From Desulfobacteraceae bacterium (GTDB lineage Bacteria; Desulfobacterota; Desulfobacteria; Desulfobacterales; Desulfosarcinaceae), in the NCBI GenBank assembly GCA_024230435.1, contig JAAERL010000187.1, positions 1 to 33,133 of the forward strand: DNA of 33,133 nucleotides, written 5' to 3'. The notes under the pieces were generated by a model. It saw nothing but the letters and a program-made list of their open reading frames with translations. It made no database searches and was not told where the DNA came from. Of this stretch, positions 12,397 through 19,116 are shown one piece after another. Position numbers and translations under genes: made by a program. Numbering within the stretch: position 1 is the first letter of the stretch; every line of letters begins with the position of its first letter.

Positions 12397-12553
12397 CAGT
12401 TGATGTCCATCGGCGCAATAGGAGAGTTTGTTCGAGATCAAGGCGTGCGATAAATTTTACCGCAGGCATATGTCTGATATTACGAGGTTAAAATTTTTCG
12501 CACACAACGAAGATATCGGGCAAATTGGCCATTTACGGATGGGCATTAGTTAT
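12397..12553 (+). repeat. R1 repeat, full-length copy overlapping the 3' end of a gene
   Basis: About 157 bp. The left end reads CAGTTGATGTCCATCGG and the right end GATGGGCATTAGTTATTC, which are imperfect inverted repeats. The inner sequence aligns with the copies at 9172-9327 and 16467-16622. The right arm contains the stop codon (12548-12546) of the minus-strand gene that ends here. Confidence 0.75.
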
Positions 12554-13694
12554 TCGAAGCTAAACCGATCTCGATGCCCTTGGTCATTAGACGAAACTGT
12601 TCGGGGTTGTTTTGGTATAATTTGTAGCATTCGGCTGCGCCCAACTTTGATACGACATCGATGGCTTTGCTTAAGTATCTGTATTGCTGAAAATTTTTCC
12701 GCTCGGCAAGGGATTCTAAAAGTTCATCTTTGCTGATATTATTTACAAAATTGTCAAAAAGCTCAGGTAAAACAAGCGAAACAATACCTCCAACAATAGC
12801 TTCTTCAACAGCCATCCATTCATTGATTACCTGTTCCACCTCCTTAACCTTTTGAGGTTCAATACTGCGAAGATGATCTCGTATGGCTGATTCCGTAGAG
12901 TCCCTGAATAATATATGCAGAGTCTCTTCAACAGGTACAATAAACACATTCATCGGATCCTTGGCGCTGTTTTGCCACACCGTGTAGGTTTCTTTTTCAA
13001 ATTCAAAGCGCTGTTCATCATCGATAATCAAATTGGATGTGTAAGAACCAATAATTCCGGTAAAAACGCGATTGCTCATTTTTATCTTAATTTTGTTTTT
13101 CTCATTTTGTTTTGTAAAAAAAACAAACTCCTCAACATACTCATTAGCGACATTGTGCACCAGGTAAGCCGTAATACCATTTTGCCGCCCAATGTTACTT
13201 ATTTGCCGCTCAATGTTACCCATTTGCCGCTCAATGTTACCTAAATCGCCCTTTTCACCTTCCAGGGTTGTAATTTTAGTATATGGATTGGGAGCATTGA
13301 ACTTTTGGAGCAAATAAGCCACTGCGTCCTGGCAGTAGCTCTCAAAAAGCTCGGCATATTCGTCTCGTTTTTCAGGAACCACATACAAACGCTTTGAACA
13401 CGAACCTAGTTTCCACTTAAGCTCACCCTCATTTAATTTTGTTTTTATATTTTTCAGTAAACTTCTATTTTTATTTAAATATTCAATATTTTCATAATTA
13501 AGTTTTTGATCAAAATCACCCTCATCCTCTTTAAACAGGACCAGTGGCTCTTCCAAATCTTCTATGCTGATAAAGTCCAGCAAACGCCCATAGTCTGTGC
13601 CTTTTTTTTGTATCGGAACTGCGATTGCGGCAACAGGAAAGAACAATATGCACGCGAGGATAAATTTTGATACTTTAACAAGCATTCGTTCCAT
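12546..13694 (-). CDS. Exported protein of unknown function
   Basis: 382 residues, not recognised. The N-terminus has a signal peptide or anchor (residues 7-26, FILACILFFPVAAIAVP). The rest is soluble and charged. Residues 152-172 are three imperfect heptads (GNIERQM, GNIERQI, SNIGRQN) encoded by 21-bp tandem repeats, probably a short coiled coil. A helical C-terminal half includes VEETLHILFRDSTESAI and EWMAVEEAIVGGIV. The stop codon is supplied by an R1 repeat arm, so the original C-terminus may have been replaced. An R1 arm also lies upstream at 13745-13763, and a terminator-like hairpin at 13772-13798. Function cannot be inferred. Confidence 0.7.
   Translation of the reverse strand: MERMLVKVSKFILACILFFPVAAIAVPIQKKGTDYGRLLDFISIEDLEEPLVLFKEDEGDFDQKLNYENIEYLNKNRSLLKNIKTKLNEGELKWKLGSCSKRLYVVPEKRDEYAELFESYCQDAVAYLLQKFNAPNPYTKITTLEGEKGDLGNIERQMGNIERQISNIGRQNGITAYLVHNVANEYVEEFVFFTKQNEKNKIKIKMSNRVFTGIIGSYTSNLIIDDEQRFEFEKETYTVWQNSAKDPMNVFIVPVEETLHILFRDSTESAIRDHLRSIEPQKVKEVEQVINEWMAVEEAIVGGIVSLVLPELFDNFVNNISKDELLESLAERKNFQQYRYLSKAIDVVSKLGAAECYKLYQNNPEQFRLMTKGIEIGLASNN
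13179..13241 (-). repeat. Three 21-bp tandem repeats inside the exported unknown gene
   Basis: Three consecutive units of seven codons encode GNIERQM/GNIERQI/SNIGRQN. The two left-most protein units are almost identical at the DNA level, suggesting slippage expansion of a coiled-coil segment. Confidence 0.75.
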
Positions 13695-14124: not shown

Positions 14125-14487
14125 TTACGCCGCGGCATTTGCCAATATCTGGCCAAAGTCCGGATCTGCCTTGACCCATTCAGTGCCGACTGATATGGGT
14201 AAAGTATTCGCATCAACAGCACCATAAAACTGCAAAGGGAAATGAATTATAATAAGGTTGCTTGCTCTTCATATAAAAAAAACCAATAGATTCAGCATAT
14301 ACAAAATTTTGGTGCCGGTCCAAACATTTGAAGGAGAGTTTAAGGTAATAGCCAACTCATTATCGATTACAATTTCAAGCGCCCGGATTAAACCAGATCT
14401 GATCAACTTGTCCGCAAGGAAACTAAGCGCCCACTGATGATGGAATGTTGTTATGAGTGCATTAAGCGAAAAAAAAGACGATAACAT
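14125..14487 (-). pseudogene. Decayed minus-strand coding region with an in-frame stop
   Basis: Two open segments in the same minus-strand frame are separated by one TGA (14271-14269). The first encodes a hydrophobic/charged stretch with SGLIRALEIVIDNELAI. The second, ending at TAA 14127-14125, encodes FYGAVDANTLPISVGTEW then VKADPDFGQILANAAA. The second segment reads like a genuine protein C-terminus. The upstream end would run into the start of the DHH-like/CPBP gene at 14453, so the 5' part is lost. No family was recognised. A terminator on the same strand at 13865-13902 fits an old transcription unit. Confidence 0.4.
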
Positions 14488-16282
14488 CCCGCATAAGCCA
14501 ACCGAAGCAGCAGTAACACGGCTTCACGCTTCGAATGATGGCAAAATAATAGACGCCAGTCACCTGCCCGAGCGCTATTCTATAAAAACCTTAGGTGAGG
14601 AGCGATTGCTTAATTGCCTTGAAGCCCCGAATTTAAATGTACATATTGAATCGGGATTGGTTATTTCAGGGGCAGTGGCAAAAAAATCTCCGGGAGGTAC
14701 CATATTTTTAGATGGTGTGGCGCAATGCGAGCCATTCCTGGATCACGAGCACAAGATCTATAATATGGATCATCATGAGGGATGTGTGCGTGCATTCACT
14801 TTATCTTGTTGCGAACAAACCCTTGTAATGTATATGAAAGGATTAGATCTGCGAGGCGAGGAATGGCATATTTTCGCTAATGAACCGGATCTGGATACCG
14901 TTTTGGCCATTTGGATTTTATTGAATCACGGCCGAATTGGGAACCTGAACTCTACTCAGCGCCGAATTCTTTTCGCGCTGGTGCGTTACGAAGGAGTGAT
15001 TGATTCATTTGGTCTTGAATTAAAGGAGCTAAGCGCTCTGGCGCCTGATCTGATGCGTAAAATCCAGCGTGTTGTAGATCGTCTGCGAAAAGATGAAATA
15101 AATCTTAAAAAACAGGGCGCCTGGCAAAAAACGGACTACCTGGATTATACAGTTTCAATTCTGCACAAAATCGACCAAATTTTTTATAAATCCAGTGATT
15201 TTAAAGACTATCAAGGTGTCGAAGAGCTGGCGCGAATTGACCTGATCGAAAATCGAATTGCGGCAGTTGTGGAAGCCGATATGGGAATTTATGAAATCGA
15301 GCCGCATTTGGGAAAAATTTACGGAAACCGCCTGGGAATCGTTTTCCTTAAAAAGGGCCCCAATGTCTATACTGTGCGTCAAATGGACTTATTTATGCCC
15401 TTAAGCCTGGATGAGGTTTACGATAGGCTCAATTTTGAAGATCCGGCTGTAAAGTGCCGAACCGCCGCAAATAAATGGGGAGGCGCCAACGATATCGGCG
15501 GATCTCCCAGAGATACAGGAACAGGCTTGGCGCCGGCCGATTTAGCCAGAACTTGCCGAGATGCGGTATGTAAATGGTCTTTTGGCCAACAGGCCTTTCG
15601 ATTTCTGACAACGTTTTTTTTGTCTGGATTCATTGTCCTGTGCGCCTATATTGCAAAGATTTACTGGAAGCCTGAAAACTGGATAGAAGGCTTGAATCCG
15701 GGACTTTTCTGGTCTAGTTCAAGTTTTTGTTTCGCCATGATTATTCTCATGGCAACAAGTTTATCGCTCTTGTTAATATCTCACAGGCATCCATGGCAAT
15801 ATGGCTGGATAACCTCCTGTGGAAAGCAGTGGTGGTTATTACTGCCTGCTTTGCTGGCCGCCGCTTTGGCAGGTGGCGTTTGGATACCCAAAGAGCTCCT
15901 GATGAGCCGGAGCTGGCCTATAATCTTCGTGGTGGGCGCCGGTGCTCTGCCCTTGGCATTTGAATTGTTATTTAGAAGCCTTGTGCATGGCATGTTTGCC
16001 CAGCATTCCTGTATTCAGCGCTGCGACAGCCCCTGGTTTATATCCTGGCCGGCCCTTGCCAGCACCTTGCTGTATACAGGATTTATCATGGCAATGGTTA
16101 TTAAGGATCAAACCAGCATCCACAATATTTCTATCCTGCACTTGGCAATGACCATAATCGGCGCCGCGGTTTTCGGATTAACGACAGCAATGGTAAGGGA
16201 AAGATCCCAAAGCCTGCTTCCCGTCATTTTATTTCATGGTTTAGCGGCTGTCTTAGTAATTATTTTTAAAATCCTGATTTAG
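14453..16282 (+). CDS. DHH-like N-terminal domain fused to a CPBP-type membrane protease-like domain
   Basis: 609 residues. The soluble N-terminal 375 residues contain NMDHHEGC (D106-H107-H108), like the DHH metal site of DHH phosphoesterases, and ANEPDLDTVLAIWIL (D146, D148), like their DxD motif. In ordinary DHH proteins the DxD motif comes before DHH; here the order is reversed. The C-terminal part (about 384-609) has some six or seven membrane segments with FELLFRSLVHGMF (E504) and ILFHGLAAVL (H595). These resemble motifs 1 and 3 of CPBP/CAAX-type proteases, but the usual EE pair has only one Glu. Substrate and role are unknown. No strong ribosome site precedes ATG 14453 (weak GGAATG). 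Confidence 0.65.
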   Translation: MSALSEKKDDNIPHKPTEAAVTRLHASNDGKIIDASHLPERYSIKTLGEERLLNCLEAPNLNVHIESGLVISGAVAKKSPGGTIFLDGVAQCEPFLDHEHKIYNMDHHEGCVRAFTLSCCEQTLVMYMKGLDLRGEEWHIFANEPDLDTVLAIWILLNHGRIGNLNSTQRRILFALVRYEGVIDSFGLELKELSALAPDLMRKIQRVVDRLRKDEINLKKQGAWQKTDYLDYTVSILHKIDQIFYKSSDFKDYQGVEELARIDLIENRIAAVVEADMGIYEIEPHLGKIYGNRLGIVFLKKGPNVYTVRQMDLFMPLSLDEVYDRLNFEDPAVKCRTAANKWGGANDIGGSPRDTGTGLAPADLARTCRDAVCKWSFGQQAFRFLTTFFLSGFIVLCAYIAKIYWKPENWIEGLNPGLFWSSSSFCFAMIILMATSLSLLLISHRHPWQYGWITSCGKQWWLLLPALLAAALAGGVWIPKELLMSRSWPIIFVVGAGALPLAFELLFRSLVHGMFAQHSCIQRCDSPWFISWPALASTLLYTGFIMAMVIKDQTSIHNISILHLAMTIIGAAVFGLTTAMVRERSQSLLPVILFHGLAAVLVIIFKILI

Positions 16283-16638: not shown

Positions 16639-19116
16639 ATGGACGAACTGCTCGTTGCCGAAATATTAACCAGTGACAGTGATGAAATCAATGAACTCAG
16701 ATCCAACACATCGGTTTTGGAAAATTTCGTCGAATTAGTCAGAAAAATAGATAACTTACCAGGTATCAACAAACGTTTTTATGAAGACAGCCGAAGTCTT
16801 TATCAAGCGACATCAATCAACCGGCAAATTTCAGAACTGGAAAGCATTTTGGCCGGCCTGTTCGGCCCCCCCATCAAACCCGCCAGCAAGCCCTTGCCCA
16901 GAAAATATAAACGTAATTCATCGGTAAAATACCTGGGAGGAATACAACGGGGGCAGTCTTTTTTTCTGCTCAGTCTTAAAACCGGTGAATTTTATGCCGC
17001 TCTGTGGCCATGGAGACGAAACAAGAAAAAAATTGAAGTTCACTTAGGCTATTGTTCGGATTGGATTACGGATGAAGATTATCATCAAATCGAAACTCTC
17101 GTTAAACGCAATCTGAGCAAAAACGCTTTTGAAAAAATGGATACGGCCGTTGGAGGACAAATCCACGGTATCAGCCTGCCGTCTTTCCTTCAAATGAGTG
17201 AGCTGGAGCGCTCCAGTTACTCATTGCTGGTAAAAAGTCAAGATCAGGTTGGAAGGCTTTTTATTAGCAATGGAGGGCTCATTGCAGCCAGCCTGGACGA
17301 TACTACCGGGTGTGAAGCTGCATATCGCATAATCAGCTGGGATAATCCCATCATTGAAATCGCACCTGCCGAAATGGACAAAGAAGATGAAATAAAGCAG
17401 CCCTTGATGCACGTTTTAATGGAAAGCCTGAAAATCAAAGACGAGCTTGCAGCCGCTATGACCCAACCGCCGAGGCTGCCCAAACCAAAGTCAAAAGCCA
17501 AAAAAAGTCAAAAGCCGCTTGTTCGTCTTGAGCGTGCGCCCCAACCGAAGCTGCCTGTAACAGAAACCTTTTCTAAGAAACGGATTATTAAGCTGCTCAT
17601 CATTGGCGCTGTGTTGATCGCCATAGCTTTTGGCATTCGAATAATTATCAGTTCCCAAAACGTTAAAGTTGAAAATTTTTCGAAACTGATGTCCAAAGTA
17701 GAAAAGTCCGATTCGCCCTATGATAAAATTTCATTATTGGAAAATTACCTCAAATCACATCCTTTAACACCTTATTTTGACGAAATTAAAAGCAGCATCA
17801 AAGAGGCCCGCCAGGAAGTTGAGGATAAAGAGTTAGAACAAACCACACTGCGAATCAGCCGGCTTGAAATCGATGAACATTACGAAAAAAAAGCCATTGA
17901 TTTATACGGCGAGTTTATGGAAAAATACCCCAAATCCCACCATGCGAAAGATATCAGCAAAGCTATTGGCAATGTAAAAAAATTAGTGGATCAGTATTAC
18001 TATGAAGAGCTCAGACAAGCCGCCCGGCTTAATTTTAAAGAACGTCTGGAAGCCTATGTTTCATACCTGAACCGATTTCCCGAAGGACGCTACAAAGAGG
18101 ATGTAAAACTTCTTATTCAAGAAATTGGAAAACAGTATTATGAATTTTTAGAAACCGATTCAAAAGAATGCAAAAAAAACAAGCGCTGGGATCCGTGTAT
18201 TGAACGCTGCCAGAATTTCATCGATGCTTACGCTGACCGTAAGCTGGCAAATCAGGCCAAGCGTCTCAAGAATGAAATGATTGATCTGCAGGATCTTGAA
18301 AAACTACGCAAAAAAGCTCTTGACTCCGGCAATAATTTCGAAAAAACGTATCAACTTTATAAATCCTATCTGGCTTCCAAGCCTCGGACCTCCCAACTGA
18401 GCGTCATCCAAAAAGAACTGCAAGAATTGGAAAAAAAATTAGAGCAGCAGCGCAAATGGGAAGCCGTTCAAAGATATGCAATCAATCCCAAATACGATGT
18501 TTACAAAAAAATCAAAAAGGTGGATTCCTATCTCAATGGCAACATTGGCGGACCTTTTTCCTCTGATGCGCAAAACCTAAAAGATCAATTGGAATCCCAG
18601 CGTCAAGCGAACCTGCGCAATCGGAAAACAAAGCAAAAAAAACAAGTAGAACTCGAAAGGCTTAGAAGACAAAAAGAGCAAAAAGAGCAACGGATTCAAC
18701 GAACCAAGATACTACAAGCTCAAATGGAAAAAAAATTTGCATCCATTCAACGCTATCATTCGAATCACAACGGTACAATGACCGATATTACCACTGGGCT
18801 AAGCTGGAATATCCTGGACAGTTTCCAGGAACTCAACAACTGTCTGAACTATGCCGGAGCAAAGAATTATGTTCAAAGCCTTCGCACCGGAGGCTATACC
18901 GACTGGCGATTGCCTTCGCCCAGCGAGCTGGCTGCCATTTACAAACAAAAGCCTTTTTTACCATCAACCGGTGCACAGTGGTTTTGGACATCGGAATCCT
19001 ACTCAAAGGGCTTCCATACCGTGGCCAATATAGTTACCGCCAAGCGGGAAGCTGTTTTTTACAGGGCGTATCGCGATTTGAATGCCTGTGGCTCCGTCAG
19101 GGCTGTACGCCCGTAG
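16639..19116 (+). CDS. DUF4388 protein with TM segment, helical repeats and C-terminal DUF1566 domain
   Basis: 825 residues in recognisable modules. Residues 1-75 are helical. Residues about 172-245 match DUF4388 (GGQIHGISLPSFLQM, then GRLFISNGGLIAAS), often in signalling proteins of Myxococcota and Desulfobacterota. A single membrane span is at about 316-337. Residues 355-690 hold about six repeats of 50-55 residues with a YLxxxPxSxxxxE-like core, TPR-like in style. A Lys/Glu/Gln-rich coiled coil leads to the C-terminal DUF1566/Lcl-like domain (about 713-825) with TGLSWN, DWRLPSPSELAAIY, FWTSESY and AVRP. The DUF4388 part is probably cytoplasmic and the repeats and DUF1566 periplasmic, suggesting transmembrane signalling or surface sensing. 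GGAG lies before the ATG. Confidence 0.85.
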   Translation: MDELLVAEILTSDSDEINELRSNTSVLENFVELVRKIDNLPGINKRFYEDSRSLYQATSINRQISELESILAGLFGPPIKPASKPLPRKYKRNSSVKYLGGIQRGQSFFLLSLKTGEFYAALWPWRRNKKKIEVHLGYCSDWITDEDYHQIETLVKRNLSKNAFEKMDTAVGGQIHGISLPSFLQMSELERSSYSLLVKSQDQVGRLFISNGGLIAASLDDTTGCEAAYRIISWDNPIIEIAPAEMDKEDEIKQPLMHVLMESLKIKDELAAAMTQPPRLPKPKSKAKKSQKPLVRLERAPQPKLPVTETFSKKRIIKLLIIGAVLIAIAFGIRIIISSQNVKVENFSKLMSKVEKSDSPYDKISLLENYLKSHPLTPYFDEIKSSIKEARQEVEDKELEQTTLRISRLEIDEHYEKKAIDLYGEFMEKYPKSHHAKDISKAIGNVKKLVDQYYYEELRQAARLNFKERLEAYVSYLNRFPEGRYKEDVKLLIQEIGKQYYEFLETDSKECKKNKRWDPCIERCQNFIDAYADRKLANQAKRLKNEMIDLQDLEKLRKKALDSGNNFEKTYQLYKSYLASKPRTSQLSVIQKELQELEKKLEQQRKWEAVQRYAINPKYDVYKKIKKVDSYLNGNIGGPFSSDAQNLKDQLESQRQANLRNRKTKQKKQVELERLRRQKEQKEQRIQRTKILQAQMEKKFASIQRYHSNHNGTMTDITTGLSWNILDSFQELNNCLNYAGAKNYVQSLRTGGYTDWRLPSPSELAAIYKQKPFLPSTGAQWFWTSESYSKGFHTVANIVTAKREAVFYRAYRDLNACGSVRAVRP

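Follow-up and report, generated by a model that had tools for sequence, protein, structure and literature searches.

MYG1 is a human RNA exonuclease found in mitochondria and the nucleus, and the membrane c-di-AMP phosphodiesterases of the GdpP type hold a DHH-type domain at the membrane. Members of the DHH superfamily carry their motifs in the order I-II-III-IV. The parts of PMC11167044 drawn on here describe MYG1 as a 3'-5' RNA exonuclease in which DHH is crucial. The metal ligands of NrnA are D24, D26, D80, H103, D156, and H20, with RecJ having Asp for H20, as stated in the excerpted text of PMC5593865. For the CPBP/Rce1-like membrane proteases (PF02517), which include the myxosortases, an excerpt of PMC10811503 reports that mutating E140, E141, or H173 impairs MmRce1.

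The window, the whole stretch of DNA that was analysed (33,133 nucleotides of contig JAAERL010000187.1 from a Desulfobacteraceae bacterium), contains a 609-aa open reading frame at 14453-16282 (+), with an ATG start and without an internal stop, which is single copy in its own genome. The encoded protein joins a DHH-like domain with permuted motifs to a degenerate CPBP membrane domain. Judging from the sequences compared, we consider it likely, with a probability of roughly 0.7, that the N-terminal domain belongs with the DHH-superfamily phosphoesterases as a circularly permuted relative, tethered by a CPBP-derived domain without a protease site. The protein resembles MYG1 (PF03690, UPF0160) in having motif II followed by NxDHH, but MYG1 has the standard motif order and lacks a CPBP domain. 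With NrnA and RecJ (PF01368) it shares the conserved Asp/His set DxD, D, DHH, D, as far as the excerpted source describes that set, whereas the motif order differs, the NrnA motif I His is absent, and WGGxxxIGGSPR is found rather than GGGHxxASG. Unlike GdpP, it has no PAS or GGDEF domain, its membrane domain is of another type, and its motif order is permuted. The CPBP/Rce1-like proteases share the PF02517 match, but in the window protein family three of the five active-site positions are lost in 34/34 members and the membrane domain is fused to a 375-aa N-terminal domain. Novelty was judged against Pfam, NCBIfam, PADLOC, PHROGs, and the open-access literature, subscription journals being mostly outside this scope, and neither a DHH-CPBP fusion nor a permuted DHH enzyme was found in that literature.

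Motif order and conservation in the N-terminal domain

The N-terminal DHH-like domain comprises residues 36-375 (14558..15577, +) and is recognized by its conservation in 37 aligned sequences and by a permuted match to a second protein family, here called family B. An earlier note on this DNA had placed DHH (residues 106-108) ahead of EPDLDT (144-149), and this order is confirmed in the intact reading frame and is kept in the relatives that reach both motifs. The DxD stretch it described is also present, although as E144-P-D146-L-D148-T-V-L-A-I-W154 it begins and ends one residue earlier than the 145-155 that had been quoted. Along the chain, the motif II equivalent L86-D87-G88 (14708..14716, +) comes first, with D87 and G88 each in 36/36 relatives where the residue is present. 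It is followed by motif III, D106-H107-H108 (14768..14776, +) within YNMDHHEGC, all three residues of which are likewise found in 36/36 relatives with residues at these positions. The helix after DHH, S118-C-C-E-Q122 (14804..14818, +), aligns with family B and retains C120 and Q122 in 36/36 and E121 in 35/36 relatives, the consensus being AxCEQ in the window protein family versus PPACRQA in family B. The motif I equivalent, N143-E-P-D-L-D-T149 (14879..14899, +), lies in a permuted place that is supported by the placement tests described below. Its D146 and D148 are found in all 37 aligned relatives, as are W154 and the residues G181 and D184 of the motif IV equivalent, E180-G-V-I-D184 (14990..15004, +). 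The motif order in the window protein family is II-III-I-IV. A glycine loop, W342-G-G-A-N-D-I-G-G-S-P-R353 (15476..15511, +), is conserved among the relatives as WGGxxxIGGSPR and common to family B, with a tail match at P 5e-7, and may be comparable to the GGGH loop of DHHA1.

Counterparts of all NrnA ligands except the motif I His (H20) are present in the window protein family. Position 144 is occupied by Glu in 33 and Asp in 4 of the 37 sequences, and this acidic residue may pair with the Asp of RecJ. The 37-sequence alignment leaves out partial copies (L024, L025), a deleted copy (L030/L031), weak hits (L026, L029), ordinary CPBP proteins (L052-L055), and duplicates of included loci (L038, L039, L115-L117, L120/L121), and pairwise identities were taken from the 33 sequences with both halves. 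The N-terminal half matches no Pfam or NCBIfam model even at E <= 10. PF01368 (DHH) does not match the window protein (P0001) at E <= 10 and is absent among 25 alignment members at E <= 1, and PDB sequence searches with P0001, A1, A4, L118, L119, and A5 found no DHH protein. AlphaFold models built from two sequences gave a pLDDT of 34.6 for the N-terminal domain and 41.8 for the C-terminal domain, which was modelled as helical, values too low for either model to serve in a fold comparison.

Permuted similarity to a family of standard order

A search with the N-domain profile over 394 genomes of the phylum gave two weak matches (E 0.002-0.003), confined to the WGGxxxIGGSPR stretch. In these two proteins (L118, L119) a PDLDT or VDLDT close to the N-terminus precedes DHH, and GWGGRxxIIGSP follows, which is the ordinary order. 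As seen in L122, L118, and L119, family B shares with the window protein family PDLDT, DHH, an (A/T)C(R/E)QA helix, the motif IV Asp, and a GWGGxxxIGSP tail, and differs in that PDLDT stands first and there is no membrane domain. The whole reading frames of members L118, L119, L122, L124, L125, L126, and L131 are standalone proteins with the pattern KPDLDT ... NxDHH ... GWGGxxIIGSP. The family B members scanned gave no Pfam match above cut-off and no NCBIfam match. Searching with a single member as query detected family B in 6/297 phylum genomes (the match in G185 being weak) but not in the genome of the window, and a profile search of one class detected it in 4/46 genomes.

The 37 window-family sequences were compared with six family B sequences using hhalign. 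With the natural order kept, the top alignment is limited to the tail (55 columns, score 54, P 5e-7), and DHH (P 9e-4) and PDLDT (P 3e-3) appear as separate, out-of-order matches. Placing residues 135-168, the PDLDT block, in front yields a single alignment of 244 columns with a score of 77 and P 1.9e-10; the top score in 200 shuffles of the columns of B was 22.4. As rearrangement controls, a 34-residue block was moved to the front from each of 51 start positions (85 to 335 in steps of 5), and as an insertion control block 135-168 was tried at 27 places. Scores above 70 against B were reached by 3/51 block moves (starts 125, 130, and 135) and by 3/27 insertion places (before residues 80, 90, and 100), the insertion before residue 80 being the same arrangement as start 135. 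All of these top arrangements have PDLDT ahead of DHH and score 74-81 compared with 54 for the natural order, and the runners-up, block 270 moved and block 135-168 put at 374, score 65. The borders of the block matter, because starts 115, 120, 140, and 145, which carry PDLDT wholly or partly forward, still score 54. Including residues 36-79 gave no gain in the match to B (66 to 77 versus 79 without them). The idea that these residues represent the second strand of family B was dropped, as the profile gives no support for it.

The reading of the domain as a circularly permuted metal-dependent hydrolase, proposed in the earlier note, therefore stands as far as the end-to-end match to a standard-order family is concerned, which is obtained only with the PDLDT block before DHH, and is less well served by the direct similarity to NrnA/RecJ-type proteins, which is weak. 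When sets of NrnA, RecJ, PPX-like, and CBS-DHH proteins taken from related genomes were compared with the window protein family by hhalign, the best P value was 0.004, permuting barely shifted the NrnA score (23.8 to 23.9), and residues 236-375 gave no significant match to NrnA or RecJ profiles. Over 227 genomes of the Acidobacteria phylum the B profile found one protein, L128 (E 6.8e-6), which is MYG1_exonuc (PF03690) by Pfam (E 6.9e-8) and matches MYG1 entries in the PDB (E 8e-6). The hhalign comparison of B with L128 gave P 4e-7 over 47 columns spanning motif II and DHH. Family B itself, a MYG1-related DHH-type family, is probably a phosphoesterase. The window protein family, compared directly with L128, gave P 0.03 in natural and 0.07 in permuted order, neither of which is significant, and P0001 has no PF03690 match. 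Because the direct comparisons are weak, the link to known enzymes rests on the chain from the window protein family through B to MYG1, together with the conserved residues. The standard order is probably ancestral, since B, MYG1, and ordinary DHH proteins all have it, and the rearrangement would then have led from this order to II-III-I-IV. In L128 (976-2301, minus strand), a bacterial MYG1_exonuc relative, only positions 5-65 of the 318 in the model are matched.

The CPBP-derived membrane domain and the proposed function

The membrane domain comprises residues 376-609 (15578..16279, +), and the hydropathy peaks of the 609-aa protein are confined to the region after residue 375. The CPBP assignment proposed earlier for residues 384-609 is upheld by a PF02517 match to residues 489-598, which at 22.9 bits just exceeds the cut-off of 22.4. 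PF02517 matches 23/25 members of alignment A1 at E <= 1, some relatives falling below the cut-off of the model, and one relative (L044) touches the myxosortase models Mrt_core and MrtJ with E values near 2e-4, short of their cut-offs. Active-site residues were counted in 34 family members aligned with four ordinary CPBP proteins (L052-L055), and the corresponding MmRce1 residues, from the cited excerpt, are E140, E141, H173, H227, and N231. The EExxxR motif is degenerate, F503-E504-L-L-F-R508 (15959..15976, +), the ELLFR portion being residues 504-508. Its first Glu is present in 0/34 members, its second in 33/34, and its Arg in 32/34. The earlier note had held the usual second Glu to be missing; the alignment reverses this, as the retained Glu sits four residues before the Arg and is the second of EExxxR, the first being absent. 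The motif-2 His is also found in 0/34 members, its site in the window protein being I545 (16085..16087, +). In the degenerate HxxxN motif, H595 to A599 (16235..16249, +), with FHG at residues 594-596, the His is retained in 29/34 and the Asn in 0/34. H512 is present in 32/34 family members, where the four ordinary CPBP proteins have Gln. Of these ordinary proteins, the CPBP reading frames L052 and L053 have intact EExxxR and HxxxN motifs but Asn at the motif-2 His position.

With three of the five active-site positions lost, proteolysis by the known mechanism is unlikely, and from its sequence the CPBP half looks catalytically dead. The protease or protease-derived scaffold suggested by the earlier note is thus best taken as a scaffold, the loss of these positions in 34/34 CPBP-containing relatives speaking against the protease. 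The CPBP core (residues 480-605) has a mean pairwise identity of 0.36 among the 33 sequences, compared with 0.57 for residues 36-375, and the N-terminal domain is the better conserved of the two in 528/528 pairs.

In the proposed mechanism, the motif I unit (PDLDT) would sit between the post-DHH helix and motif IV, not at the N-terminus, of a DHH-like fold in which D87, D106-H107-H108, D146/D148, and D184 form a two-metal (Mn or Mg) site. The WGGxxxIGGSPR loop may hold a nucleotide or oligonucleotide, and the domain, facing the cytoplasm, would hydrolyse a phosphate ester or phosphodiester. Likeness to related families suggests a nucleotide, a short RNA, or a cyclic dinucleotide as candidate substrate. 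Two diadenylate cyclase (DAC) matches are present in the genome of the window, and nothing beyond these ties the protein to c-di-AMP. The CPBP-derived domain would be a membrane anchor, or an intramembrane sensor controlling the enzyme. The protein would then be a cytoplasmic phosphoesterase at the inner membrane, whose protease-derived bundle may also sense something within the membrane.

The fused membrane domain that looks catalytically dead, together with the hybrid histidine kinases that adjoin the gene in two loci (L091, L108), would also suit an N-terminal domain that is a DHH scaffold binding metal or nucleotide without hydrolysis, a ligand sensor signalling through the pseudoprotease bundle. 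We regard this as unlikely, because every putative metal ligand is retained, which a sensor would not need, and no neighbour of the gene is constant. It is distinctly improbable that the CPBP half has kept intramembrane hydrolase activity, acting via E504, H595, and the family-specific H512, with the DHH-like domain regulating it or preparing its substrate. The retention of E504, R508, H595, and H512 (33, 32, 29, and 32 of 34, the last absent in the four ordinary proteins) and the PF02517 match in 23/25 members of A1 are in its favour, but the equivalents of MmRce1 E140, H173, and N231 are missing in 34/34, H595 is lost in 5/34, the MmRce1 mutants described in the excerpt of PMC10811503 (E140, E141, H173) are impaired, and conservation of the CPBP core is below that of the N-terminal domain in all 528 pairs.

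An unrelated fold, in which DHH and PDLDT are a mere resemblance and the likeness to B reflects a common tail domain plus chance, would be consistent with an N-terminal domain that has no Pfam or PDB sequence match and only weak direct similarity to NrnA and RecJ. This has very little probability in our judgement, as the end-to-end permuted match to standard-order B depends on both the block and its place, DHH and PDLDT are matched separately even in natural order, and B in turn matches MYG1. The permuted phosphoesterase tethered by a CPBP-derived domain is preferred. A broader proposal, that a naturally permuted DHH branch and a regulatory CPBP pseudoprotease constitute a novel class of nucleotide hydrolase under membrane control in the taxonomic family of the window and the Acidobacteriota, with unpermuted B as the bridge to MYG1, has in our estimate even odds. 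If the permuted reading is right, the DHH active site would survive relocation of the motif I unit within the chain. The protein would be a membrane-held, so far unannotated candidate for a phosphoesterase and an example of an intramembrane protease fold retained after active-site loss, and family B would connect poorly annotated bacterial proteins with MYG1.

Distribution of relatives and genomic context

In the taxonomic family of the window 23/30 genomes match, its own included. One copy (L024) is truncated by the contig end, and one genome (G020) carries a second, partial copy (L025). No match was found among the 17 genomes listed for other families of the same order. In a phylum sample of 395 genomes the N-terminal domain occurs in two besides that of the window, G086 and G314. 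Of the copies in these genomes, L028 is interrupted by an in-frame stop and lacks the CPBP part, and the similarity of L027 (G086) fades beyond about residue 318; these two N-domain-only members have no Pfam match whatsoever. In G086 the N-domain gene is present twice, and both copies (L027 and L030/L031) are eroding, the second being internally deleted and carrying a stop. A match in G353 (L029, E 7e-4) was rejected as a relative, as we read it as a PAS/histidine-kinase-like reading frame.

One relative (L002) comes from an Acidobacteria metagenome-assembled genome, and in the Acidobacteria phylum 15/396 genomes match the family profile, 12 of them with two-domain proteins (L049 being cut at a contig end). 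The remaining matches are an intact N-terminal domain alone of 384 aa (L051) and two that arise via ordinary CPBP proteins only. In the N-domain tree (37 sequences, arbitrary root L051) the taxonomic family of the window forms one clade of 22 sequences with a support of 0.95, and L027 is placed within an Acidobacteriota group, a placement behind which a transfer may lie. No relative was found in viral contigs or plasmid proteins, or in phages with L128 as sole query. Four proteins given to PADLOC (E <= 1) and PHROGs (E <= 0.1) had no match, and a defence or phage role was dropped on this ground.

The neighbour downstream of the gene is encoded on the same strand (16639-19116, +) and has DUF4388, a C-terminal Lcl_C domain, and weak YfiO/TPR-like stretches. 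A protein from the cluster of this DUF4388/Lcl_C neighbour occurs close to the gene in 10/31 gene-holding loci (33 examined), and the neighbours in another genus differ. An operon was considered and dropped, as the next gene starts 356 bases past the stop and the neighbours vary between genera. A hybrid histidine kinase is directly upstream in L091 and L108 and, by clustering, nearby in L090 and L111. Because no neighbour is constant, the context yields no substrate. On the opposite strand of the window, at 12546-13694 (-), a 382-aa reading frame with no Pfam match below E 0.3 starts with what resembles a signal peptide and contains short near-repeats (GNIERQ.., GNIGRQ..).
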